Below are positions 45,655 to 58,072 of a stretch of 64,000 nt of DNA, one piece after another; position 1 is the stretch's first letter, and every line of letters begins with the position of its first letter. The notes under the pieces were generated by a model. The model saw only the letters and a list, made by a program, of their open reading frames with translations, was not told the DNA's origin and did not search any database. The stretch is from Neomegalonema sp. GTDB taxonomy: Bacteria; Pseudomonadota; Alphaproteobacteria; Rhodobacterales; Rhodobacteraceae. Location of the stretch: the NCBI GenBank assembly GCA_022760435.1, contig JALEFY010000031.1:62001-126000 (forward strand), written 5' to 3'. Position numbers and translations under genes: made by a program.

Positions 45655-45993
45655 TCAATGCGAGATCATCCAGGGCCGCTTGGCCGGGAAGCTTTTCGAG
45701 CCATCCGGGCGGTAGAGCGTGCCGCTCTTGCCCTTCTTCGCATCATTGCCGCCGCCGCAACAGCTGCAGCCCGGACCGTGGCCGGAGCGCTTTGGACTGT
45801 CGGCGCTGCGCTCGTTGGTCTCATGCGCGCGCCGCTTCTCGGAGCTGAGCACCGCAAGGCGCGGGGCGGTCATCATCACCCGCGCCGCCTGCGCCGCGCA
45901 GCTCGGGCAGGGCTGTGGATCGGCATAGCGGGCAATGGAGGCCATCGCCTCGAACGGGCCGCAGTCATCGCACCAGTATTCATAGACGGGCAT
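45655..45993 (-). CDS. fmdB: FmdB-family zinc-ribbon protein
   Basis: A 112-residue protein. The N-terminal MPVYEYWCDDCGPFEAMASIARYADPQPCPSC is the FmdB zinc ribbon (two C-x2-C pairs). The C-terminal part is basic with a GCSCCGGGND Cys cluster. FmdB was first described beside the formamidase gene of Methylophilus as a putative regulator; here it is the last gene of the same kind of operon, 95 bp after fmdA. Confidence 0.85.
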   Translation of the reverse strand: MPVYEYWCDDCGPFEAMASIARYADPQPCPSCAAQAARVMMTAPRLAVLSSEKRRAHETNERSADSPKRSGHGPGCSCCGGGNDAKKGKSGTLYRPDGSKSFPAKRPWMISH

Positions 45994-46088: not shown

Positions 46089-47318
46089 TCAGATATCCGG
46101 GGCCATCGGAATATCGACCGAGCCGTCGAGATATTTCGTCGGCCCGTCCGCATTCGGCATCAGGTCCCATTCAAAGATGTCGGTCGGCAGCCAGAGCGTC
46201 GCGCAGGCATTGGGGATGTCGACCACGCCCGAGATATGCCCCTGCACCGGCGCCGTGCCCAGGATCGCATAGGCCTGCGCGCCGGTATATCCGAACTTCT
46301 TGAGATACTCGATCGCGTTCAGGCAGGCCTGACGATAGGCGATATGCACATCGAGATAATGCTGGGTCCCGCTCTCATCGACCGAGATCCCCTCGAAGAT
46401 CAGATAATCATCGTATTTCGGCACGATCGGCGAGGGGCGGAAGAGCGGGTTCTTGACCCCGTATTTGGCGACCCCGTCCTTGATCAGCTCGACCTTCAGA
46501 TGCAGCCAACCGGCCATCTCGATCGCGCCGCAGAAGGTGATCTCGCCATCGCCCTGGCTGAAATGCAGATCGCCCATCGAGAGCCCGGCGCCCTCCACAT
46601 AGACCGGGAAGTAGATCTTGCAGCCGCGGCTCAGATCCTTGATGTCGCAATTGCCGCCATGCTCGCGCGGGGGCACGGTGCGCGCGCCTTCCGCGGCCGC
46701 CTTGTCGCGCGCCTCGCCGGTCAACTTGCCCATATGCGCGCTTTGGGTATTGGGCAGCGCCGCGAGCGGCGGGGTGCGGGTCGGGTTGGTATCAAACAGC
46801 GCCTTCTCGCGGCTGTTCCACATGTCGAGCATCGAGCGATCGGGCAGGCAGCCGATCAGCCCGGGATGGATCAGCCCGGCATATTTGACCCCCGGCACAT
46901 GGCGCGAGCGGGTGAACATGCCCTCGAAATCCCAGATCGACTTTTGCGCCAGCGGGAAGTGGTTGGTGAGGAACCCGCCACCATTTTGCTTGGAGAAAAA
47001 GCCGTTGAAGCCCCAGAGGCTGTCATCCTTGGCGCCGATATCGAGGATCTCGACCACCAGCAGATCGCCCGGCTCTGCGCCCTTCACCCCGATCGGGCCG
47101 GAGAGATAGTGCACCTGCTCGAGCTCGACATCGCGCACATCGGCGGCGTTGTCGTCATTCTTGATCTGCCCGCCGGTCCAGTCATAGGTCTCGATCTTGA
47201 AATCATCGCCCGGCTCGACCCAGACCGCGATCGGGATATCCGGATGCCAGCGGTTATGCACATTGGGATTGGTATGCGGGCTCTCGCTCAGGTTCACTTC
47301 GATCAAAGTATCAGCCAT
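46089..47318 (-). CDS. fmdA: Formamidase (acetamidase/formamidase family)
   Basis: A 409-residue enzyme hydrolysing formamide to formate and ammonia. Family landmarks: HNRWHPDIPIAVWVEPGD, DWTGGQIKNDDNAADV, YLSGPIGVKGAEPGDLLVVEILDI, REHGGNCDIKDLSRGCKIYFPVYVEGAGLSMGDLHFSQGDGEITFCGAIE (metal/catalytic site region), and QAYAILGTAPVQGHISGVVDIPNACATLWLP. RBS GGGAGAAC. It follows urtE by 30 bp, so imported amide can be hydrolysed directly; no urease genes are present. Confidence 0.95.
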   Translation of the reverse strand: MADTLIEVNLSESPHTNPNVHNRWHPDIPIAVWVEPGDDFKIETYDWTGGQIKNDDNAADVRDVELEQVHYLSGPIGVKGAEPGDLLVVEILDIGAKDDSLWGFNGFFSKQNGGGFLTNHFPLAQKSIWDFEGMFTRSRHVPGVKYAGLIHPGLIGCLPDRSMLDMWNSREKALFDTNPTRTPPLAALPNTQSAHMGKLTGEARDKAAAEGARTVPPREHGGNCDIKDLSRGCKIYFPVYVEGAGLSMGDLHFSQGDGEITFCGAIEMAGWLHLKVELIKDGVAKYGVKNPLFRPSPIVPKYDDYLIFEGISVDESGTQHYLDVHIAYRQACLNAIEYLKKFGYTGAQAYAILGTAPVQGHISGVVDIPNACATLWLPTDIFEWDLMPNADGPTKYLDGSVDIPMAPDI

Positions 47319-47348: not shown

Positions 47349-48038
47349 TCAGACGGACAGGAAACGCGAGACCGCCGCTTCATCGACGGCATCGCGGGTG
47401 GCTTCGTGGACAAAATTGCCGTTCTCGATCACCAGCACGCGGTCGGCGACATCGAGGGCAAAGCTGAGCACCTGTTCGGAAACGACGATCGACAGGCCCT
47501 TCTCGTCGCGGATCTTGCGCAAGGTCCGGCCCATCTCCCGGATGATCGAGGGCTGGATGCCCTCGGTCGGCTCATCGAGCAGCAGCACCTTGGGCTTTGA
47601 GGCCAGGGCACGAGCGATGGCGAGCTGCTGTTGCTGCCCGCCCGAGAGGTTGCCCCCGCGCCGGTTCTTCATCTCCAGCAGCACCGGGAACAGCTCGTAG
47701 ATATCGCCGGGCACCGAGCGCTCGCCGGTCACGGTGAGGCCGGTCTCGACATTCTCCTGCACCGTCATCGCCGAGAAGATCATCCGGCCTTGCGGCACAT
47801 AGGCGATGCCGTTTGCGACGCGCTGATGCGATTTCATGTCGGTGATCGGGGTCTGATCGACGCTCACTGAGCCCGATTTGGTCGGCACGATCCCCATCAA
47901 TGTCTTCATGAGCGTGGTCTTGCCCATGCCATTGCGGCCCATGATCGCCACGATCTCGTTGGGCTGCACGGTGAAATCGAGCCCGTGCAGCACCTCCGAA
48001 GCGCCATAGGCGGCGCGCAAGTCCTGAACATTCAGCAT
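47349..48038 (-). CDS. urtE: Urea/short-chain amide ABC transporter ATPase UrtE
   Basis: A 229-residue ATPase with the UrtE form of the LivF family: LNVQDLRAAYGASEVLHGLDF, Walker A GRNGMGKTTLMKTLMG, YVPQGRMIFSAMTVQENVETG, signature LSGGQQQQLAIARAL, Walker B LLLDEPTEGIQPSI, then IVVSEQVLSFAL. RBS AAGGAGATCG. Sits between urtD and fmdA. Confidence 0.92.
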   Translation of the reverse strand: MLNVQDLRAAYGASEVLHGLDFTVQPNEIVAIMGRNGMGKTTLMKTLMGIVPTKSGSVSVDQTPITDMKSHQRVANGIAYVPQGRMIFSAMTVQENVETGLTVTGERSVPGDIYELFPVLLEMKNRRGGNLSGGQQQQLAIARALASKPKVLLLDEPTEGIQPSIIREMGRTLRKIRDEKGLSIVVSEQVLSFALDVADRVLVIENGNFVHEATRDAVDEAAVSRFLSV

Positions 48039-48050
48039 CTTCGATCTCCT

Positions 48051-48800
48051 TCAATGCCCCAGATAGACTTCGACGACCTTCGGGTCGGCCTGCACATGCT
48101 CCATCGTGCCCTCGGACAGGATCTGGCCCTGATGCAGGACGGTGACCCGGGTCGCGATGTCCTCGACGAATTTCATGTCGTGCTCGATCACGATCACCGA
48201 GCGGTCCTGGATGATGCGGTTGAGCAGCTCGGCGGTTTTCTTGCGCTCGGCCACCGACATGCCGGCCACCGGCTCATCGAGCATCAGCAGCTCGGGATCC
48301 TGGATCAGCAGCATCCCGATCTCGAGCCACTGCTTCTGGCCATGGCTCAGATAGGCCGCCTTCTCATCGAGCGCGTCGGTCAGGAAGATCGTCTGCGTGA
48401 TCTGCTCGATGCGCTCGATCACTTCGAGATCGCGCTTGAAGGCGAGCGCGCCAAACACGCCATGCCCCTTGGGGTAGGAGATCTCGAGATTCTCGAAGAC
48501 GGTGAGATCCTCATAGACCGATGGCGTCTGGAACTTGCGCCCGACCCCGGCATGGACGATCTGATCCTCGCGCATCTTCAAGAGCTCCTGGCCCTTGAAT
48601 TTCACCGAGCCTTCGGTGGCCTTGGTGCGCCCGCAGATCAGATCGAGCACCGTGGTCTTGCCCGCGCCATTGGGGCCGATGATCACCCGGCACTCATTGG
48701 GCTCGACATAGAAGCTGAGGTCATTGACCGCCTTGAACCCGTCGAAGGACACGGTGAGCCCCTCGACCATCAGCACGAAATTGGGATTGACGTAATTCAT
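48051..48800 (-). CDS. urtD: Urea/short-chain amide ABC transporter ATPase UrtD
   Basis: A 249-residue ATPase of the UrtD type: VEGLTVSFDGFKAVNDLSFYVEPNECRVIIGPNGAGKTT, GRKFQTPSVYEDLTVFENLEIS, YLSHGQKQWLEIGMLL (the SHGQ form of the signature is typical of UrtD), LLMLDEPVAGMS, VIVIEHDMKFV. RBS GGAGG. 12 bp separate it from urtE. Confidence 0.93.
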   Translation of the reverse strand: MNYVNPNFVLMVEGLTVSFDGFKAVNDLSFYVEPNECRVIIGPNGAGKTTVLDLICGRTKATEGSVKFKGQELLKMREDQIVHAGVGRKFQTPSVYEDLTVFENLEISYPKGHGVFGALAFKRDLEVIERIEQITQTIFLTDALDEKAAYLSHGQKQWLEIGMLLIQDPELLMLDEPVAGMSVAERKKTAELLNRIIQDRSVIVIEHDMKFVEDIATRVTVLHQGQILSEGTMEHVQADPKVVEVYLGH

Positions 48801-48809
48801 TCTCGCCTC

Positions 48810-49952
48810 CTATTCCGCCGGGGCGCCGACGAAATCGGCATCCTTGCTGTTGGATTTGCTACGCAGCTTGTCGAAGAGGGGCTTCACGCGCGGGGCGATG
48901 AAGTCGTCGTAGAGACCGGCCAGCCCCTTGGGGAAGGCGAGCACCACGGCGATGAACAGCGCGCCAAGGCCGAGCAGCCACAATTCGGGGAAGCTCTCGG
49001 AAAAGGTGGTCTTGGCCCAGTTCACAACCAGCGCGCCGTAGACCGCGCCGAGGATCGAGAGCCGCCCGCCAACCGCGCAGAAGATAACCATCTCGATCGA
49101 GGGGACGATGCCGACGAAGCTCGGCGACATGAACCCGACCTGAAGCGTGAACATCGCACCGCCGATCGCGGCAAAGGCGGCACCGGCGCAAAACACGAAG
49201 GTCTTGAAATCGGCGACGTCATAGCCCGAGAAGCGCACCCGATCCTCCTGGTCGCGCATGGCGATCAGGATCCGCCCAAGCTTGGAGCGGCGGATATATT
49301 GCGCCGCGAACAGGCAGGCGAAGAGCAGACCGCCATTGACGAAGTAGAGGATATTCTTCGCCTCGTCGGTGCGGATGTCCCAGCCCATCAGCGTGCGCAG
49401 ATCGGTGATGCCGTTGACGCCGCCGGTATAGCCTTGCTGGCCAATGATCAAGATGGTCATGATCGCGGCGATCGCCTGGGTGATGATCGCGAAATACACC
49501 CCGCCCACCCGGCGCCGGAACATCGCAACCCCGATGATGAAGGCGAAGATCACCGGCACCAGCACCACCGCGATCACGGTGAAGGTGAAGCTGTGGAAGG
49601 GCTGCCACCAGAACGGCAATTCAGTGAGCTGGTTCCAGTCCATGAAGTCGGGAATGCCCGGGGTGGACTGGATCTTGGTATTCTCCGGCGTCGAGGCTTC
49701 GAGCTTGAGGAACATGGCCATGCAATAGCCGCCAAGGCCGAAGAACACCCCTTGCCCAAGGCTCAGGATCCCGCCCGCGCCCCAGCACAGCACGAGGCCA
49801 AGCGCGACGAAGGCATAGGTGAGATATTTGCCGAACAGGTTCAGGCGGAACGGGTCGAGGATCAGCGGGAAGATCACGAAGATCAGCAGGGCGAGGATGG
49901 CGAAGCCGACCATTTCCTGCATACTCATGAAGCGATTGCTTTGCGGTTTCAT
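48810..49952 (-). CDS. urtC: Urea/short-chain amide ABC transporter permease UrtC
   Basis: A 380-residue LivM-type permease, the long UrtC form: GLVLCWGAGGILSLGQGVFFGLGGYCMAMFLKLE, GVYFAIITQAIAAIMTILIIGQQGYTGGVNGITDL, YVGLMSPSFVG-like VGFMSPSFVGIVPSIEMVIFCAVGGR. A C-terminal charged tail follows the last helix. About ten hydrophobic segments. Confidence 0.93.
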   Translation of the reverse strand: MKPQSNRFMSMQEMVGFAILALLIFVIFPLILDPFRLNLFGKYLTYAFVALGLVLCWGAGGILSLGQGVFFGLGGYCMAMFLKLEASTPENTKIQSTPGIPDFMDWNQLTELPFWWQPFHSFTFTVIAVVLVPVIFAFIIGVAMFRRRVGGVYFAIITQAIAAIMTILIIGQQGYTGGVNGITDLRTLMGWDIRTDEAKNILYFVNGGLLFACLFAAQYIRRSKLGRILIAMRDQEDRVRFSGYDVADFKTFVFCAGAAFAAIGGAMFTLQVGFMSPSFVGIVPSIEMVIFCAVGGRLSILGAVYGALVVNWAKTTFSESFPELWLLGLGALFIAVVLAFPKGLAGLYDDFIAPRVKPLFDKLRSKSNSKDADFVGAPAE

Positions 49953-49977: not shown

Positions 49978-50904
49978 TCATTTGCGCAGCTTCAGGGCGA
50001 ACAGACCCTGCGGGCGGATCATCAGGATGCCGACCACGGTCAGCAGGGTGAGGACCTTGGCCATCGAGCCGGAGAGGAAGAACTCCATGATCGATTGCGC
50101 CTGACTGATCGAGAAGGCCGAGGCGATGGTGCCAAGCAGGCTCGCAGCGCCGCCGAAGACCACGACCAGGAAGGTATCGACGATATAAAGCTGGCCCGCG
50201 GTCGGGCCGGTCGAGCCGATCATCGTGAAGGCCGAACCCGCCACCCCTGCCACGCCGCAGCCGATGCCGAAGGTCAGCCGGTCGGTCCATTCGGTATTGA
50301 TGCCGACGGCCCCGGCCATCACCCGGTTCTGCACCACGGCGCGCACCTGCTTGCCCCAGCTCGAGCGGAACATCATCAGATAGACGGCGATCGAGATACT
50401 GACCGCGAGCACCATCACGAAGATCCCGTTGATCGGCACCTCGATCATGTCGGTGAGCGGCAAGGACCCCATCATCCAGTCGGGGATGGTCACCCCCACT
50501 TCACGCGCGCCAAAGACGGAGCGGTAGATCTGTTGCAAGATCAGCGACAGGCCCCATGTGGCCAGCAGCGTATCAAGCGGGCGCTTGTAGAGATGCCGGA
50601 TCAGCGCCCATTCGACAAAAAGCCCGAGCGCGCCGGAGGCAATGAAGGCGCAGATCATCGCAATGAAAAAGTAGATGCCGAACAGATCCGGCAAGTAAGC
50701 CTCGAAGAAATTCGACAGCATGTAGGTGACATAGGCGCCAAGGATCATGAACTCGCCATGGGCCATGTTGATCACGCCCATCTGGCCAAAGATGATCGCA
50801 AGACCCAGCGCCATCAGCACAAAGACAGAAAAAAGGATCAGCCCGGCGAAGCCTTGCATGGCAAAAATCGCGAGCAATTCCTGGCTCGAATAGTCGGCAA
50901 ACAT
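49978..50904 (-). CDS. urtB: Urea/short-chain amide ABC transporter permease UrtB
   Basis: A 308-residue LivH-type permease with FSVFVLMALGLAIIFGQMGVINMAHGEFMILGAYVTYM, the UrtB GINTEWTDRLTFGIGCGVAGVAGSAFTMIGSTGPTAGQLYIVDTFLVVVFGGAASLLGTIASAF. It lacks the long N-terminal periplasmic extension of some urea UrtB proteins. RBS GAGGGAGG. Confidence 0.93.
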   Translation of the reverse strand: MFADYSSQELLAIFAMQGFAGLILFSVFVLMALGLAIIFGQMGVINMAHGEFMILGAYVTYMLSNFFEAYLPDLFGIYFFIAMICAFIASGALGLFVEWALIRHLYKRPLDTLLATWGLSLILQQIYRSVFGAREVGVTIPDWMMGSLPLTDMIEVPINGIFVMVLAVSISIAVYLMMFRSSWGKQVRAVVQNRVMAGAVGINTEWTDRLTFGIGCGVAGVAGSAFTMIGSTGPTAGQLYIVDTFLVVVFGGAASLLGTIASAFSISQAQSIMEFFLSGSMAKVLTLLTVVGILMIRPQGLFALKLRK

Positions 50905-51004: not shown

Positions 51005-52285
51005 TTACTGGTAACCCTCGGGGAACGGATCGGGCTCAACGAGGTCCGCCGTTTCAAAAACGACCTCGTATTGCCCGTCCGCTTTCGCGCGACCGACACG
51101 AGTTTTCGACCACAGGTGATGGTTTTCGTGGACCTTCACATAGCCTTCCGGCGCCGTGGTCAGCTCGATGCCCGGGGAGGCGGCGCGAACCTTGTCAACA
51201 TCAAACGAGCCCGCTTTTTCGACCGCGGCTTTCCACAACCATGGGCCCAGATAGGCGGCCTGGGTCACATCGCCGATCACCATGTCCTCGCCCCACATTT
51301 CCTTGAAGGCTTTGACGAAGGCGAGGTTGTTGTCGTTTTGCAGGCTCTGGAAGTATTTCATGCAGGCATAGGCGCCTTCGATATTCTCGCCGCCAATGCC
51401 GCGGATCTCGTCTTCGGTCACCGAGATGGTGAGCAGAAGCGGCTTTTCCTTGGTCATGTCGATACCAGCAGCCTTGAGCTGCTTGTAGAAGGCCACGTTC
51501 GAGCCGCCGACGACGATCGCGTAGATCACATCCGGCTTTTTCAGGCGGATCTTGTTGATCACCGAGTTGAACTGGGTGTGGCCGAGCGGATAATATTCCT
51601 CGCCGACCACTTTCAGGCCGAGCTTCTCGATATGCTTGCGCGCGATCTTGTTCGAGGTACGCGGCCAGATATAGTCCGAACCGAGCAGGTAGAAGGACTT
51701 GGCACCCTTGGTCTTGGTCACCCAGTCGATACCGGCGATGATCTGCTGCGTCGCTTCCTGACCGGTGTAGATCACGTTCGGCGACTGCTCGAGCCCCTCA
51801 TAGAAGGTCGGGTAGTAGAGGAAACCATTATACTGCTCGAACACCGGCAGCACCGCCTTGCGGCTCGCGGAGGTCCAGCAGCCCATCACCGAGGCGACCT
51901 TGTCATTGACGAGCAGTTTTTTCGCCTTTTCGGCGAAAGTCGGCCAGTCGGAGGCGCCGTCTTCCTGGATGTATTCGATCTTGCGGCCCAGGATCCCGCC
52001 CATCGCGTTGATCTGGTCGATCGCGAGCTTTTCGGCCTGCACCGACCCGGTTTCCGAGATCGCCATGGTGCCGGTGATCGAGTGCAGAATGCCGATTGTT
52101 ACCGTGTCATCGGTGACGGCAAGCCCGGTCGTGTTGATTTCTGCGGTCGGAAAGCTCTGTGCGTTCCCAAAACTGGGGGCAAACAGCGACGCGGTCAGGG
52201 CGGTTCCGCCGAGCAGGACCGAGCGGCGGGACAGGCCCGCGGCCCGAGCGTCTTTCTTGCCATTAGGGAAATCTTGATCTGACAT
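51005..52285 (-). CDS. urtA: Urea/short-chain amide ABC transporter substrate-binding protein (UrtA/FmdD-like)
   Basis: A 426-residue periplasmic binding protein with a twin-arginine signal (LSRRSVLLGGTALTASLFAPSFGNAQ), as is usual for UrtA. Then TVTIGILHSITGTMAISETGSVQAEKLAIDQINAMGGILGRKIEY, SVMGCWTSASRKAVLPVFE, YYPTFYEGLEQSPNVIYTGQEATQQI. The same protein group includes FmdD, the amide/urea receptor of Methylophilus; with fmdA downstream, formamide or acetamide is likely a ligand. RBS AAGGAGG. First gene of the operon. Confidence 0.93.
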   Translation of the reverse strand: MSDQDFPNGKKDARAAGLSRRSVLLGGTALTASLFAPSFGNAQSFPTAEINTTGLAVTDDTVTIGILHSITGTMAISETGSVQAEKLAIDQINAMGGILGRKIEYIQEDGASDWPTFAEKAKKLLVNDKVASVMGCWTSASRKAVLPVFEQYNGFLYYPTFYEGLEQSPNVIYTGQEATQQIIAGIDWVTKTKGAKSFYLLGSDYIWPRTSNKIARKHIEKLGLKVVGEEYYPLGHTQFNSVINKIRLKKPDVIYAIVVGGSNVAFYKQLKAAGIDMTKEKPLLLTISVTEDEIRGIGGENIEGAYACMKYFQSLQNDNNLAFVKAFKEMWGEDMVIGDVTQAAYLGPWLWKAAVEKAGSFDVDKVRAASPGIELTTAPEGYVKVHENHHLWSKTRVGRAKADGQYEVVFETADLVEPDPFPEGYQ

Positions 52286-52399
52286 ATCGCCTCCTTGGTG
52301 CGGTTTTTCTCCGGCCTCCAGCGGTTGCCGGAGCAGTTGAGACTCGCTTTCTGCGTGTCTCTGTCCAAGGATGGTGCTGAGATATGCTGCACTGCGACA

Positions 52400-52417
52400 T
52401 ACGTCAGATGACGTATA
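52400..52417. promoter_or_regulatory. Perfect 8+8 palindrome in the urtA / kinase divergent promoter
   Basis: ATACGTCA-GA-TGACGTAT: perfect 8-bp arms with 2-bp spacer, in the 234-bp gap 52286-52519, about 115 bp from the urtA start and about 100 bp from the kinase start. Symmetry and location suit a dimeric response regulator with a LuxR-type domain, such as the one at 56032. No gene is present in the gap. Confidence 0.6.
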
Positions 52418-52519
52418 GTTCTGCGCGTTTTACCGGTGCAGGATGCTTTCAACGCCAAAAATCCACGCGCTCTTTGCTGCGGTGCAAAGGGCGTGCGCGC
52501 AATGGAAAGGACGCATTCG

Positions 52520-55500
52520 ATGAGGATGGAGCCGGGTCAGGAAGGCCAGAACGCCGCCTCCCCCCGATCGGGCGAAAAAGCGGACCCGAAAGCCGGTCTG
52601 GATGTGTGTGGAGAATCGGCCCAACAGATGACCTTCGCCTTCACCGCCCCGCCCGAGCGGCGACGCTATAACCGCTGGGTTGCCGATGAGACGCTCGAGG
52701 ATTTTGCCCTGCGCTTCACCGCAAGACGGGCGCGGCGCTGGTCTATGGCCCGGGTCGCCAATACCGCCATCGGGTCGATCTCGTTTCTGGCGCTCGAGGC
52801 CATCGGCGGCGCCATCACCCTGAGCTATGGTTTCGAGACCGCCGTCACCGCGATCCTGCTGGTCGGGATGGTGCTGTTTCTGACCGCCTTCCCGATCAGC
52901 TATTACGCGGCGCGCTACGGGGTCGATATCGATTTGCTGACCCGCGGCGCCGGCTTTGGCTATATCGGCTCGACCCTGACCTCGCTGATCTATGCGTCCT
53001 TCACCTTCATCTTCTTTGCACTAGAGGCCGCGATCCTGAGCCTGGCGCTCGAGTATTGTTTCGGGATCCCGCTTGCGCTTGGCTATATCCTCAATGCGTT
53101 GGTGGTGATCCCGCTGGTGACGCACGGGTTCACCAAGATCTCGATTTTTCAGGCCTGGACGCAGCCATTCTGGATCGTGCTGCATCTGCTGCCCTTCGTC
53201 ATGCTCGGCTTTAGCGGCTATGATCTGGAGCGCTGGACCGGGTTTGAAGGGGCGGCCGGGCAGGGGCTGAGCGTCTTGACCCTCGGCGCTGCTCTGGGGG
53301 TGGTGGCCTCGCTCATTGCCCAGATTGGCGAGCAGGTGGATTTCCTGCGCTTCTTGCCGGAGCCCAAGACCGCGCGTGAGCGTCGGAACTGGTGGCTGGC
53401 CCTGATCGCGGCCGGGCCCGGATGGGCGGTGCTGGGGGTGCTGAAGATGCTTGCCGGCTCCTATCTGGCGACATTGGCGCTGGGGGCGGGCGCCTCGATC
53501 GAGGCGGCGGGAGATCCGACGCGCATGTATGCCAGCGCCTTTGCCAGCGTCTTCGATCATCCTGCGATCGTGCTCACCCTGACAGGCGGCTTCGTCCTGC
53601 TCTCCCAGCTCAAGATCAACGTGACCAACGCCTATGCTGGCTCGATCGCCTGGTCGAACTTCTTCTCCCGCCTCACCCATAGCCATCCGGGGCGGGTGGT
53701 GTGGCTGGTGTTCAATGTCGCCATCGCGCTGATGCTGATGGAGCTGGGCGTGTTCGGCGCGCTCGAGAGCACGCTAGCGCTCTACTCACATGTGGCGCTG
53801 GCCTGGATCGGGGCGCTGGTCGCCGATCTGGTGATCAATAAGCCGCTGGGTCTGAGCCCGCCGGGGATCGAGTTCCGCCGTGCGCATCTCTATGACATCA
53901 ATCCGGTCGGGCTCGGCGCGATGAGCGGCGCCTGTCTGCTGGTGATCCTCGCCGGGCTTGGCCTTTTTGGCCCCAGTGCTGCGGCGCTGACCCCGGTGAT
54001 CGCGCTCGGGGCGAGCCTGATCCTGGCGCCGCTGATCGCCTATGTGAGCGGTGGGCGCTATTACATCGCCCGCCCTGCCGCCCAAGCGCCCGCGGCGCTG
54101 CATGTCTGCTCGGTCTGCGAATACCGCTTTGATCCCGAAGACATCACCCATTGCCCGTTCTATAGCGGCCCGATCTGCTCGCTATGCTGTAGCCTCGACA
54201 GCCGTTGCCGGGATGCCTGCAAGCCCGAGGCCCGGATCGCCCGCCAGGCCAGCCGTTGGCTCGACACCTATCTGCCAGCGCCGCTGAAGGCCGCGGTGAC
54301 CTCGCGTTTCGGCAAGTTCGCCCTTCTCGGCGGCCTGCTCGCCATGGTGTTCGGGGGCGTGCTCTGGCTGGTCAGCCGCAGCGCCGCCAGCCCGCATTTC
54401 GAGGCGCATCTGGCGGTGATCTTCGCCGCCGGGCTGTTCGTGATCGGGGTTTTGAGCTGGATGTTCGTGCTGGCGGCGGAGAGCCAGGCCCAGGCGCGCG
54501 ATGAGGCGGAGATCCAGACCCAGCGGTTGCTGCGCGAGATCCGTGCCCATGAGCGCACCGACCGCCAACTCCAGGAAGCGCGCGACAAGGCCGAGGCGGC
54601 GAACCTCGCCAAGACCCGCTACATGGCCGGGCTCAGCCATGAGCTGCGCACCCCGCTCAACTCGATCTTCGGCTTTGCCCAGATCCTCGAAAACGACCCG
54701 GCGACCCCGGCGCATCGGCGCGAGGCGGTCTCGACCATCCGGCGCAGCTCCGAGCATCTGGCCGGGCTGATCGAGGGGCTGCTCGACATCTCGAAGATCG
54801 AGGCCGGGCGTCTCGAGATCAATCGCGACCGGGTCAATCTGCGGCTGTTTCTCAACCAGATCGCCAATATTTTTGAAGAGCGCGCGCGGCTCGAGGGGAT
54901 CGATTTCAGCGTGTCGCTCGCCTCGAACCTGCCCGAATGGGTTGCGGTCGATGAGAAACGCCTGCGCCAGATCATCATCAATCTTCTGTCCAACGCGATG
55001 CGCTATACCGAGAAAGGCTCGGTCTCGCTCTCGATCACCTATCGCAGCGAGGTTGCCGAGATTCTGGTGGCCGATACCGGATGCGGGATCGCGCCGGAGG
55101 ATCTCGAGCGGATCTGGCAGCCCTTTGAGCGCGGCGGCAATGCGGCTATCGCGGGCTCGGGGCTTGGGCTCACGATCACCAAGCTGCTGGTGAATATTCT
55201 GGGCGGGGATATCGAGGTCACCAGCACGCTCGGGCAAGGCAGCGCGTTTCGGGTGCGGCTGATGCTGCCCTCGCTCGGAGGGCAGGGGCCGCGCTCGGCG
55301 CTCGAGCAGAGCACGGCGCGGATCCTGGGCTATCGTGGGCGGCGGCGGGTGATCCTGGTGGTGGATGACGATCTCAATCACCTGCGGATGATCGAGAGCA
55401 CGCTGACCCCGCTCGGTTTCGAGGTCTATCGGGCCAGCGGCGCCGAAGAAGCGCGCTTGCTGCTCGGGGCTGTGCAGCCGGATCTGTTCTTGCTCGATAT

Positions 55501-56035
55501 CGACATGCCCGGCGCCAGCGGATGGGATCTGGCGGCGCATCTGCGCCAGAACGGCTATCGCTCGACCCCGGTGGTGATGGTCTCTGGCCATGCATTGGAG
55601 GCTCGCACGCGCGGGCCCGAAAACCTGCTGCATGACGCGTTCATCGTCAAACCGGTCAATCTCGAGGATCTGACCGAGCGGATCCGGCAATTGCTCGGTC
55701 TCGAATGGGTGATGGGGCCGAGCGCGGTGCCTGCGCGAGCCACCGACCGGGCGGTGGCGGCGCGGCAATTGAATGCGGGTCAGGCGCGCCAGCTCCTCGG
55801 GCTGGCCGAGTTGGGGCTCGCAGGCGAGCTGCGCAAATCCTTCGATGCGATCGAGGCGGACGAGCCTGATCTGCGCGAAGCGCTGGCGCCGCTGCGGGCG
55901 CGGCTATCGGTGTTTGACCTGCCAGCGATCGTGCGCCTGCTCGCCCCGTTCGCGCTCAAGCAAACCGCGCCGGGCAAAGCGGAGCAACGCCCGGCCAATG
56001 AGCCTTTGTCAGTGAAAGAGGGAGAGGCAGGATGA
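52520..56035 (+). CDS. Hybrid histidine kinase with NCS1-transporter-like sensor half
   Basis: A 1171-residue protein. Residues about 50-510 resemble nucleobase:cation symporter-1 proteins (about 12 membrane segments; FRRAHLYDINPVGLGAM-type text near the end). A Cys-rich segment follows at about 530-570 (CSVCEYRF...HCPF...CSLCCSLDSRCRDAC), a possible metal site; then two more helices, a coiled coil, HisKA with H707 in GLSHELRTPLNS, HATPase (NLLSNAMRYT, DTGCGIAPED, GSGLGLTITK), and a receiver domain with D993 in LLDIDMPG. Start ATG 52520 (GAAAGGA upstream) chosen over ATG 52502. Divergent from urtA; overlaps its response regulator by 4 bp. Amide or urea sensing is inferred from context. Confidence 0.85.
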   Translation: MRMEPGQEGQNAASPRSGEKADPKAGLDVCGESAQQMTFAFTAPPERRRYNRWVADETLEDFALRFTARRARRWSMARVANTAIGSISFLALEAIGGAITLSYGFETAVTAILLVGMVLFLTAFPISYYAARYGVDIDLLTRGAGFGYIGSTLTSLIYASFTFIFFALEAAILSLALEYCFGIPLALGYILNALVVIPLVTHGFTKISIFQAWTQPFWIVLHLLPFVMLGFSGYDLERWTGFEGAAGQGLSVLTLGAALGVVASLIAQIGEQVDFLRFLPEPKTARERRNWWLALIAAGPGWAVLGVLKMLAGSYLATLALGAGASIEAAGDPTRMYASAFASVFDHPAIVLTLTGGFVLLSQLKINVTNAYAGSIAWSNFFSRLTHSHPGRVVWLVFNVAIALMLMELGVFGALESTLALYSHVALAWIGALVADLVINKPLGLSPPGIEFRRAHLYDINPVGLGAMSGACLLVILAGLGLFGPSAAALTPVIALGASLILAPLIAYVSGGRYYIARPAAQAPAALHVCSVCEYRFDPEDITHCPFYSGPICSLCCSLDSRCRDACKPEARIARQASRWLDTYLPAPLKAAVTSRFGKFALLGGLLAMVFGGVLWLVSRSAASPHFEAHLAVIFAAGLFVIGVLSWMFVLAAESQAQARDEAEIQTQRLLREIRAHERTDRQLQEARDKAEAANLAKTRYMAGLSHELRTPLNSIFGFAQILENDPATPAHRREAVSTIRRSSEHLAGLIEGLLDISKIEAGRLEINRDRVNLRLFLNQIANIFEERARLEGIDFSVSLASNLPEWVAVDEKRLRQIIINLLSNAMRYTEKGSVSLSITYRSEVAEILVADTGCGIAPEDLERIWQPFERGGNAAIAGSGLGLTITKLLVNILGGDIEVTSTLGQGSAFRVRLMLPSLGGQGPRSALEQSTARILGYRGRRRVILVVDDDLNHLRMIESTLTPLGFEVYRASGAEEARLLLGAVQPDLFLLDIDMPGASGWDLAAHLRQNGYRSTPVVMVSGHALEARTRGPENLLHDAFIVKPVNLEDLTERIRQLLGLEWVMGPSAVPARATDRAVAARQLNAGQARQLLGLAELGLAGELRKSFDAIEADEPDLREALAPLRARLSVFDLPAIVRLLAPFALKQTAPGKAEQRPANEPLSVKEGEAG

Positions 56036-56952
56036 AGCGTCCAGATGCTCTTCCAAGCCGGATCGTGCTGATCGTCGATGATGATCCGGGCTCGCTCGCC
56101 ATGGTCTCTCAGGCGATGGAGGAGGCGGGCATGATGGTGATGGTCGCGCGCGATGGGCAGGCGGCGATCGAACTGGCCCGCCGCATATCGCCCGATGTCA
56201 TCCTGCTCGATGCGGTGATGCCGGGGATGGACGGGTTCGAGACCTGCCGCAGGCTCAAGGCGCCGCCGCTCTCGATCGATGCGCCGGTGGTGTTCATGAC
56301 CGGGCTGAGCGATGCCGAGCATATCCTGGCCGGGCTGGGGGCGGGCGGGGTGGATTATGTCACCAAGCCGCTCAATCTCGAGGAACTGGTTGCGCGGGTC
56401 ACGGTGCATCTGGTCAATGCGCGCCTCATCCGCAGCGCGCGCGATGCGCTTGATAGCAGCGGCCATTCGGTGCTCGCATTCCGTGAGGATGGCAGCTTGT
56501 CATGGGGATCGCCGCAAGCGCTGCAAATGCTCGAAGGTGTCGCCGATCTGACCGATCCGCAAAGCACCCTGCGCCGCGAAGCGCTGGCCTGGCTGGAAAA
56601 CCTGCCCGCCACGCCGGTCTCGCATAGCGAGCCATTCTTGATGATCCGCGAGCGGCTTGCCTTGCACTATATCGGGGCGACCCAGGCAGGGGAATGGCTG
56701 GTCCGGCTTGAGAACCGGCTGGAGGAGCGTCCCGAAGAGCGGCTGGAGCGGGTCTTTGGCCTGACCGCGCGCGAGGCGGAAGTGCTGCTCTGGCTCACGC
56801 GCGGCAAGACCAATCGCGATATCGGCGATATCCTCTCACTCAGCGCGCGCACCGTGAACAAGCATCTCGAACAGGTCTTTCACAAGATGGGCGTCGACAA
56901 TCGCACATCGGCCGCCGTGCTGGCGGATCGGGCGATCTTGCAGGACCATTGA
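56032..56952 (+). CDS. Response regulator, receiver plus LuxR-type HTH
   Basis: A 306-residue regulator. Receiver domain about 10-130 (acidic DDD near IVLIVDDDPGS, phosphoacceptor D60 in ILLDAVMPGMDG, Thr in FMTGLS, Lys in VTKPLN). A middle region of about 100 residues without clear family, perhaps PAS-like. C-terminal LuxR HTH: LTAREAEVLLWLTRGKTNRDIGDILSLSARTVNKHLEQVFHKMGVDNRTSAAV. Translationally coupled to the kinase (ATGA). Likely controls the urt-fmd operon. Confidence 0.9.
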   Translation: MKRPDALPSRIVLIVDDDPGSLAMVSQAMEEAGMMVMVARDGQAAIELARRISPDVILLDAVMPGMDGFETCRRLKAPPLSIDAPVVFMTGLSDAEHILAGLGAGGVDYVTKPLNLEELVARVTVHLVNARLIRSARDALDSSGHSVLAFREDGSLSWGSPQALQMLEGVADLTDPQSTLRREALAWLENLPATPVSHSEPFLMIRERLALHYIGATQAGEWLVRLENRLEERPEERLERVFGLTAREAEVLLWLTRGKTNRDIGDILSLSARTVNKHLEQVFHKMGVDNRTSAAVLADRAILQDH

Positions 56953-57379
56953 CGCCGCGTCCTTCTTCTTCGCTGCGTTCCCGCGCCGCATTGACAGGAA
57001 ATTCCCCTGAACTTTCAAGGCGACTGTGGCAAAGAAGCCATTCTGGACCGTCCCGTCCGGGTTGCTTTTCGAGGCAAGATTTGGGGGCAGGCGTGATCTG
57101 TCTCAAGGGCGGCGGGGTGCAAGGCCTTGAAAAATAGGGGGCAAACCCTTGTCTGCACCAGTTTTACCACGATGTATCAGAATTAGACGGCGCAATTAGC
57201 TCTATGGTTAACAATAGCGGCTCTATTTCTGCGCGCTCAAGCGGTTTTTACAGCTTCCCGCATTAATTAAATTTCTGTTATCCCTTCAAACGTCGTCTGC
57301 CACGAGCCGTTGATTCCGCACCGGGGCAATCGCGGTGGCTTCCCAAGTATCGTGGTTCTGTCTTGAGAGGGAGAGTAGA
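56953..57379. other. 427-bp intergenic region, AT-richer than surroundings
   Basis: No convincing gene. The stretch about 57140-57290 is markedly AT-rich for this genome (for example TTAATTAAATTT near 57263) and probably holds the promoter of the rhodanese gene. A TTGACA at 56991 has no matching -10. No clear terminator for the response regulator was seen. Confidence 0.5.
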
Positions 57380-58072
57380 GTGTTTAAATCGACCACAATC
57401 GCAGGTTTCGTCCGCGTATTTGCCGTCCTCATCGGGCTGCTTTCCGCAGCATTCGCATCGGCTGCCTTCGCCCAGGGCAAGCCGGTCAAGATCACCGATG
57501 AAATCACGGTCTTTGAATTCTCGATCGACGGGAAGAACTTCCGGATCGAGCGGGAAAACGATCCGACCGCGCGCATTGAGGATGGTTTTGCCAAGACCTC
57601 CCGCGCCTGCCCACCCTTCTGCATTCACGCCATGAGCGCCGCCCCGGGTGTCGAGACGGTCGGCGAGCTCGAGGTGATGGATTACATCCGCAACAAGGTG
57701 GAAACCGGCAAGGGCCTGCTCGTCGATGCACGGATCCCGGTCTGGTACCAGAAGGGCACCATCCCTGGTTCGGTGAACATCCCGTTCTTCGTTCTTGACC
57801 CGAACAAGAACCCCTATCAGGACCAGATCCTCAAAGCGCTGGGTGCCACCAAATCCTCGAGCGGTCGCTGGAACTTCACCGCCGCCAAGGATCTGCTGCT
57901 GTACTGCAATGGGCCCTGGTGTGATCAGTCGCCGCGCGCGATCGAGAACCTGATCGATGCAGGCTATCCGACCGGCAAGCTGTTCTACTATCGGGGCGGC
58001 ATGCAAAACTGGCTGATGCTGGGTCTGAGCGTTGATCGTCCGGGCTCCAACCCTGTCGCACGGGCGAATTAA
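57380..58072 (+). CDS. Periplasmic rhodanese-like protein with CPPFC and CNGPWC motifs
   Basis: A 230-residue exported protein: signal peptide (ending SAAFAQ), a small domain ending in SRACPPFCIHAM, then a rhodanese fold with VDARIPVWYQKGTIPGSVNIPF and the active-site loop YCNGPWCDQSPRAIENL, where the first Cys sits in the sulfur-accepting position. The extra Cys of the loop and the CPPFC pair suggest thiol-disulfide chemistry. GTG start 57380 with RBS GAGAGGGAGAG. Followed by the LysM protein. Sulfur donor or acceptor unknown. Confidence 0.82.
   Translation: MFKSTTIAGFVRVFAVLIGLLSAAFASAAFAQGKPVKITDEITVFEFSIDGKNFRIERENDPTARIEDGFAKTSRACPPFCIHAMSAAPGVETVGELEVMDYIRNKVETGKGLLVDARIPVWYQKGTIPGSVNIPFFVLDPNKNPYQDQILKALGATKSSSGRWNFTAAKDLLLYCNGPWCDQSPRAIENLIDAGYPTGKLFYYRGGMQNWLMLGLSVDRPGSNPVARAN

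Follow-up and report, generated by a model that had tools for sequence, protein, structure and literature searches.

A window of 64,000 nucleotides from Neomegalonema sp. (contig JALEFY010000031.1, positions 62,001 to 126,000; "the window" means this whole stretch) carries a two-component system whose histidine kinase has a transporter-like membrane half. The open reading frames (ORFs) of the kinase and of its LuxR/NarL-type response regulator share 4 bp, and the pair is divergent from a gene row identified as urtA-B-C-D-E-fmdA-fmdB, in agreement with the original prediction. Kinase and regulator had been placed at 52520-56952; both are present, although 52520 lies 18 bp within the kinase ORF, which starts at 52502. 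Because the same layout of kinase and urt-fmd genes was seen again in scores of genomes, the arrangement is not due to chance. The features of the locus are listed below by window coordinates (aa, amino acids; TM, transmembrane).

52502..56035, + strand: hybrid histidine kinase, ORF with ATG start, 1177 aa; another in-frame start, GTG, at 52436
52685..54076, + strand: NCS1/CodB-like transmembrane half, about aa 62-525 (AlphaFold2 model, fold match, profile alignment), presumed sensor of urea or short amides
54107..54223, + strand: Cys cluster, aa 536-574, eight Cys, CxxC-x11-C-x7-C-x2-CC-x5-C-x3-C
54317..54472, + strand: two-helix TM hairpin, aa 606-657 (hydropathy, model), with a long helix onward into DHp
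54611..54808, + strand: HisKA (DHp), phospho-acceptor His713 (Pfam, motif)
54950..55267, + strand: HATPase_c (CA) (Pfam)
55352..55687, + strand: receiver domain of the kinase, Asp999 (Pfam, motif)
56032..56952, + strand: LuxR/NarL-type response regulator, 306 aa; REC 12-123 with Asp60, HTH 244-298 (Pfam, motifs)
52399..52416, no strand: candidate operator ATACGTCA-GA-TGACGTAT, consensus TACG-N8-CGTA, in the urtA-kinase gap
51005..52285, - strand: UrtA, amide-type substrate-binding protein (TIGR03407, 554.8 bits; cut-off 492.75)
49978..50904, - strand: UrtB permease
48810..49952, - strand: UrtC permease
48051..48800, - strand: UrtD ATPase
47349..48038, - strand: UrtE ATPase
46089..47318, - strand: FmdA formamidase/acetamidase (NF045496, 755.3 bits; equivalog cut-off 500)
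45655..45993, - strand: FmdB zinc-ribbon protein

Pfam matches in the kinase were HisKA (aa 704-769, E 2e-18), HATPase_c (817-922, 4e-24) and Response_reg (951-1062, 1e-17), and in the regulator Response_reg and GerE/LuxR. The catalytic motifs were kept: SHELRTP with His713, the N box, the G boxes and LLDIDMPG with Asp999 in the kinase, and LLDAVMPG with the phospho-acceptor Asp60 in the regulator. The protein is thus a hybrid histidine kinase with catalytic residues in all three domains, coupled to a LuxR-type regulator as had been predicted. The Cys-rich cluster expected after the membrane half was also found; its eight residues (C536, C539, C551, C559, C562, C563, C569 and C573) are nearly invariant among relatives, and the cluster is probably metal-binding. 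Between it and HisKA lie two extra TM helices (aa 606-624 and 639-657), seen by hydropathy and in the AlphaFold2 model, a hairpin that was absent from the original prediction. After the 12-helix core the order is Cys cluster, TM hairpin and then a single long helix into HisKA. No credible Pfam match was obtained for aa 530-700, the stretch of the cluster and hairpin. Weak Pfam-type matches to RNase III, Lips and zinc-finger families (E 0.03 to 3) were dismissed as noise.

The membrane half had been described as NCS1-symporter-like, with about 12 helices. It gave no credible Pfam match, either alone or in a scan of 15 relatives with E-values up to 10, and a genome search with PF02133 was silent; membership of PF02133 by sequence was therefore rejected. 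When solved structures were searched by sequence, no transporter was found, whether the query was the half, its profile or a distant stand-alone relative (L014). An AlphaFold2 model of aa 41-699, made from an alignment of 37 loci (predicted local distance difference test 83.6, predicted template modelling score 0.85), had the LeuT/Mhp1 fold with 12 TM helices. Its best structural match was CodB (Z 32.4, 399 residues, 3.4 Å) and its second Mhp1 (Z 27.7), with the next family at 25.3; SLC5-type structures (NIS, SiaT, CHT1 and DUR3) appeared in the fold lists and ranked below NCS1. Profile-profile comparison with the CodB family aligned 417 columns over the whole half at a probability of 98.9%, with an E-value that applies to a single comparison. 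Two stand-alone relatives, L013 (E 3e-4) and L014 (E 1.6e-16), matched the NCBIfam cytosine permease model and so provided a sequence bridge. Given the structural matches, the profile alignment and this bridge, the membrane half as modelled has the NCS1 fold, on a branch outside PF02133. The earlier description therefore stands for the fold and number of helices, and fails for family membership by sequence.

Pocket residues were mapped using the published CodB structure as the key (PMC9379551). Gln105, Trp108, Phe204 and Ala207 of CodB correspond to Thr168, Phe171, Leu271 and Gln274 of the kinase half, and the aromatic sandwich pair of CodB (Trp108 and Phe204) is not kept, the kinases having Phe171 (or Leu) and Leu271. 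In an ungapped profile alignment, which retains the CodB Arg216-Tyr285 pair as Arg283 and Tyr378, the Na2 ligands Thr278/Thr279 correspond to Lys371/Ile372, so that Lys371, which is invariant, falls on a sodium ligand of CodB. If TM8 is aligned with a gap, Val374/Thr375 take these positions instead, and both hydroxyls are kept in neither alignment. The original prediction had reasoned from the purines and hydantoins carried by NCS1 members, and had proposed that conservation of the substrate and Na+ sites be checked. Neither the stacking pair nor both Na2 hydroxyls survive the comparison with CodB, and as the nucleobase- and Na+-binding residues are changed here, that reasoning is not what supports amide sensing. 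Eleven positions (Thr168, Glu175, Gln274, Glu277, Gln278, Asp280, Gln369, Lys371, Asn373, Asn376 and Tyr378) were invariant in 123/123 kinases labelled by their amide or urea neighbours, and the core pocket residues were identical in nine stand-alone proteins. Such a polar pocket, lacking a base-stacking pair, would be a better fit for a small amide than for a purine. We make no claim for positions that might tell urea from amide kinases (F171L, T375M/A, S270A and G362A), because the tree shows just two changes at F171 and T375, and no more than two independent pairs can be drawn from its supported branches.

The distribution of the kinase was compared with that of amide and urea genes in 397 proteobacterial genomes. 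The kinase half was found in 67 genomes at E<=0.001 and in 65 by strong match, and FmdA was above its cut-off in 44. The kinase was present in 43 of the 44 FmdA-bearing genomes versus 22 of the 353 without FmdA (Fisher p 6e-40, uncorrected for relatedness), and FmdA genomes with the kinase span 16 families. UrtA was far commoner (above cut-off in 165/397 genomes); chance co-occurrence through common UrtA-like proteins was rejected on the grounds of adjacency and of the FmdA result. The original prediction had staked itself on genome-wide co-occurrence with urt and fmd, and 43 of 47 fmdA genes lay <=20 kb from a kinase. When kinase loci were labelled by neighbour (amide: amide-type UrtA, FmdA, AmiE or AmiF; urea: urea-type UrtA or UreC), 91 of 134 were amide-linked, 32 urea-linked, 1 both and 10 neither; these figures count loci, not independent species, as some genomes are included twice. 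Eight of the 10 loci without amide or urea genes are short, at contig ends or short-flanked, and only L149 and L164 have 20 kb. Co-occurrence is thus near complete (43/44 FmdA genomes, 124/134 kinase loci) and supports the proposal that the kinase senses urea or an amide. Some variants were also seen. Two kinases of 885-894 aa, shorter than the hybrid form, adjoin fmdA-fmdB (L131:4162-10138 and L132:4189-10284) and have neither the palindrome described below nor the usual attached regulator gene, and a 618-aa kinase (L133:7857-9713) has a related Cys-rich and TM part without the NCS1-like half.

The kinase occurs beside either of two kinds of UrtA. The genome of the window has a second UrtA beside ureC (L140, G000:C13:64500-84000), which is about 40% identical to that of the window. 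TIGR03407 scores both paralogues alike (556.6 vs 555.2 bits) and therefore cannot separate urea from amide UrtA. The urt genes of the window form an amide-type paralogue and differ from the urease-linked set found elsewhere in this genome. An amide-linked paralogue of Bradyrhizobium has been proposed from context to carry an amide other than urea, either formamide or acetamide (PMC3098086), and fmdCABDEF of Methylophilus methylotrophus is reviewed as a set of genes for a formamidase and an importer of short amides and urea, for which both formamide and urea act as inducers (PMC10781810). Five genomes (G286, G326, G340, G461 and G521) carry two kinases each, one with fmdA as its neighbour and the other with urease. 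At least seven changes of the urea label are required on the kinase tree, indicating that partners were exchanged repeatedly while the core of the pocket was unchanged.

The urtA-kinase gap of the window contains the palindrome ATACGTCAGATGACGTAT (52399-52416). An exact TACG-N8-CGTA was present in 73 of 104 non-identical amide-type kinase-urtA gaps, compared to a mean of 0.25 and a maximum of 1 in shuffled gaps; with one mismatch allowed, it was found in 94/104 vs 9.2 in shuffles. Urea-type gaps had the exact palindrome in 7/17 (0.05 expected from shuffles). Over 60 full loci, 42 exact copies lay within the gap and 11 elsewhere, and 6 of these 11 were directly upstream of fmdA in loci where that gene is a unit of its own (L034, L035, L038, L049, L072 and L079). 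It also precedes amiE in L016 and urtA in L141, L142 and L145, three loci in which the kinase and urtA do not diverge. With up to two mismatches allowed, there is only one copy in the genome of the window. In Acinetobacter baumannii (L210:4382-10605), where the gene opposite the kinase and regulator, in divergent orientation, is not urt but a stand-alone relative of the membrane half itself, the palindrome ATACGCAAAATAACGTAT lies between kinase and permease; it was not found before stand-alone permeases that have no kinase neighbour.

Such stand-alone relatives are found in urease operons on Acinetobacter plasmids (L013 and L215) and in a chromosome-sized record of Klebsiella pneumoniae (L209), beside fmdA in Moraxella (L213) and Tsukamurella (L214), and in Methylovirgula (L016), where the kinase, amiE and fmdAB are neighbours and the 22 kb of the locus contain no urt. 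The shared palindrome and the occurrence of these relatives at loci for urease, formamidase or amidase further support sensing of urea or amides by the kinase. The Cys cluster is present in most stand-alone permeases too, with fewer Cys, and the TM hairpin is absent from them, their ends coming soon after the cluster. On the tree, kinase halves and stand-alone forms fall on two sides of one branch (90/98), as a single fusion would give, with the root uncertain. Positions fixed differently in kinase and stand-alone forms include F95/Y and E99/F or Q in TM1, A379/S in TM8 and a few more.

Individual stand-alone loci are also worth recording. On a plasmid of Arthrobacter sp. U41 (L212:7013-13131), the permease, the aliphatic amidase gene amiE, an ATPase and the acetate-CoA ligase gene acs stand in a row that looks like an acetamide utilisation set. 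The "cytosine permease" at the end of the K. pneumoniae urease operon (L209:8956-10563, CP125156.1) has the pocket residues of the kinase family and the Cys cluster, and is probably a misnamed urea permease. A distant relative (28%) on a plasmid of Rhodococcus gordoniae (L014:5888-11386) adjoins hydantoinase/oxoprolinase genes and a PucR-type regulator, and at the level of sequence it bridges the kinase-half family to known NCS1 proteins. A Streptomyces copy (L211) had no amide or urea neighbour of the kind seen above, and viral contigs scanned for the stand-alone permease had none.

The domain order, the modelled NCS1-like fold, the linkage to urt, fmd, ami and ure genes, the palindrome and the pocket shared with permeases are together best explained by a transporter-derived two-component system that very probably responds to urea or to short-chain amides (formamide, acetamide) and governs how these are taken up and hydrolysed. 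The ligand would enter the NCS1-like half and shift its alternating-access equilibrium, with Lys371 standing where a sodium ion otherwise would. By way of the cytoplasmic Cys cluster and TM hairpin, this movement would reach the DHp helix and set the balance of kinase and phosphatase activity at His713. Phosphate would pass to Asp60 of the regulator, directly or through Asp999, and the regulator would bind TACG-N8-CGTA and turn on urtABCDE-fmdAB and perhaps its own operon as well. The identity of the ligand, transport by the fused half, the order of phosphotransfer and the recognition of the palindrome by the regulator are all steps that we infer.

Several observations weigh against this explanation in its simplest form. 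The palindrome is missing from many urease-linked loci without an adjacent urt (L138, L143, L144, L146, L147 and L166), from L148 and L152, and from the non-hybrid L131 and L132, so that the regulon is not identical everywhere. Given the partner changes on the tree, the exact ligand may differ between lineages. The route of the phosphorelay is uncertain, as no Hpt domain was found, and the literature yielded no experiment on ligand, phosphotransfer or DNA binding. Genomic linkage, furthermore, cannot tell binding from transport, and sensing by binding alone would fit equally well.

This last point raises the question, within the preferred explanation, of whether the fused half is a working transporter whose signalling reports flux (a true transceptor) or a locked receptor. 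Its core pocket residues are those of the stand-alone permeases, and the best-studied analogue, CbrA, transports histidine with a Lys at its Na2 site (PMC13022988). The kinase halves nevertheless deviate at otherwise fixed positions (E99 for F/Q, F95 for Y, A379 for S), and a separate importer in nearly all kinase loci would make transport by the sensor redundant; we therefore regard a true transceptor as possible and somewhat the less probable state. A different signal was also considered, namely the general nitrogen state or another co-travelling compound bound by the half, such as cyanate, a product of purine breakdown or the ammonia that the amidase sets free. Nucleobases and hydantoins are ligands of NCS1 proteins elsewhere, the Rhodococcus relative adjoins hydantoinase genes, and the fmd genes of M. 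methylotrophus are repressed by ammonia (PMC10781810). The neighbours, however, come from unrelated enzyme families (FmdA, AmiE, AmiF and urease) whose common substrate class is a small amide, and the replacement of the stacking Phe204 and Trp108 of CodB by Leu271 and Phe171 makes a nucleobase unlikely, which leaves this alternative improbable. A hitch-hiking gene island, in which the kinase has some other regulatory target and is only carried along with the amide genes, is very unlikely, for although the module is often on plasmids with insertion sequence elements around it, the linkage is kept in 16 families through independent changes of partner (amide urt, urea urt, urease, stand-alone permease). 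In addition, the palindrome stands exactly before these partner genes and is unique in the genome of the window.

Sensing of urea or short amides through a transporter-derived half can also be put in a broader form, to which we give even chances. The membrane half would belong to an undescribed NCS1-derived family for urea and short amides in which Lys replaces the coupling sodium, and which exists in two forms with one pocket: stand-alone permeases, and a kinase-fused sensor driving the TACG-N8-CGTA regulon. As part of the same proposal, and with the same even odds, the stand-alone form would be the permeases annotated "cytosine" or "allantoin permease", including that of the K. pneumoniae urease operon.

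Plasmid records matching the kinase half numbered 530, of which 342 were from Klebsiella, and 502 records had most of the half; in E. coli it was found in only 6/5426 genomes. On the Klebsiella plasmid NZ_CP039952.1 (L012:12518-18400), the kinase is divergent from urtA-E and an AmiF-type formamidase. Papers on Klebsiella CG307/ST307 name a plasmid urea uptake cluster, urtABC(DE)-formamidase (PMC5506382, PMC13060141), and the text available from them, searched by term, has no mention of a two-component system or sensor kinase. The cluster resembles that of the window, and the related plasmid L012 has this kinase divergent from it. Hospital plasmids known for such a cluster carry the putative urea/amide sensor kinase too. 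In the window, directly downstream of the regulator, lies a rhodanese-domain protein with an N-terminal signal-like stretch (57335-58072).

Transporter-fused kinases are a small known class, based on SLC5 or ammonium transporters, and the window kinase adds another transporter fold; no NCS1-fused or amide-sensing kinase was found among open papers. It is a candidate for the sensing of urea and formamide in many bacteria, and the stand-alone form is a candidate urea permease in those urease operons that have a gene annotated as cytosine or allantoin permease. With its wide spread, defined palindrome and stand-alone siblings, the family makes the question of how a transporter becomes a receptor testable in matched pairs.

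Among known systems, fmdCABDEF of M. methylotrophus similarly joins a formamidase to an importer of short amides and urea, and differs in that no transporter-fused kinase is described in the part of the review seen (PMC10781810). CodB and Mhp1 (PMC9379551) are the best structural matches, and Arg216 and Tyr285 of CodB have counterparts in Arg283 and Tyr378; the window half, in contrast, is unmatched by PF02133, has changed pocket and Na2 residues and bears an extra C-terminal Cys cluster. The Amt-type ammonium sensor kinase of Kuenenia (PMC5764959) likewise fuses a transporter domain for a nitrogen compound to a histidine kinase, although with an ammonium transporter fold and another gene context. 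In CrbS/R and RpuS/R (PMC5715377, PMC9100948), transporter-fused kinases, of which CrbS is described as a hybrid, control the uptake or use of a small nutrient; these respond to acetate or pyruvate and have an SLC5 fold and a STAC domain, where the window kinase has a half that appears nearest to NCS1, followed by the Cys cluster and TM hairpin.

By analogy, the window kinase would work like the transceptor kinases of the CbrA type, with a transporter half nearest NCS1 and a different linker. The partner of CbrA is CbrB, whereas a LuxR-type regulator takes that place here. CbrA, an SLC5-STAC-PAS kinase of Pseudomonas (PMC13022988, PMC7096432), shares with it a LeuT-fold transporter half joined to a histidine kinase and a soluble linker module, and the Lys in the Na2 site of this independent transporter-fused kinase has a likely counterpart in the invariant Lys371, which aligns with an Na2 ligand. 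The two appear to differ in that CbrA combines an SLC5 fold with STAC and PAS linkers and histidine, whereas the window kinase combines an NCS1-like half with a Cys cluster, a TM hairpin and urea/amide genes.

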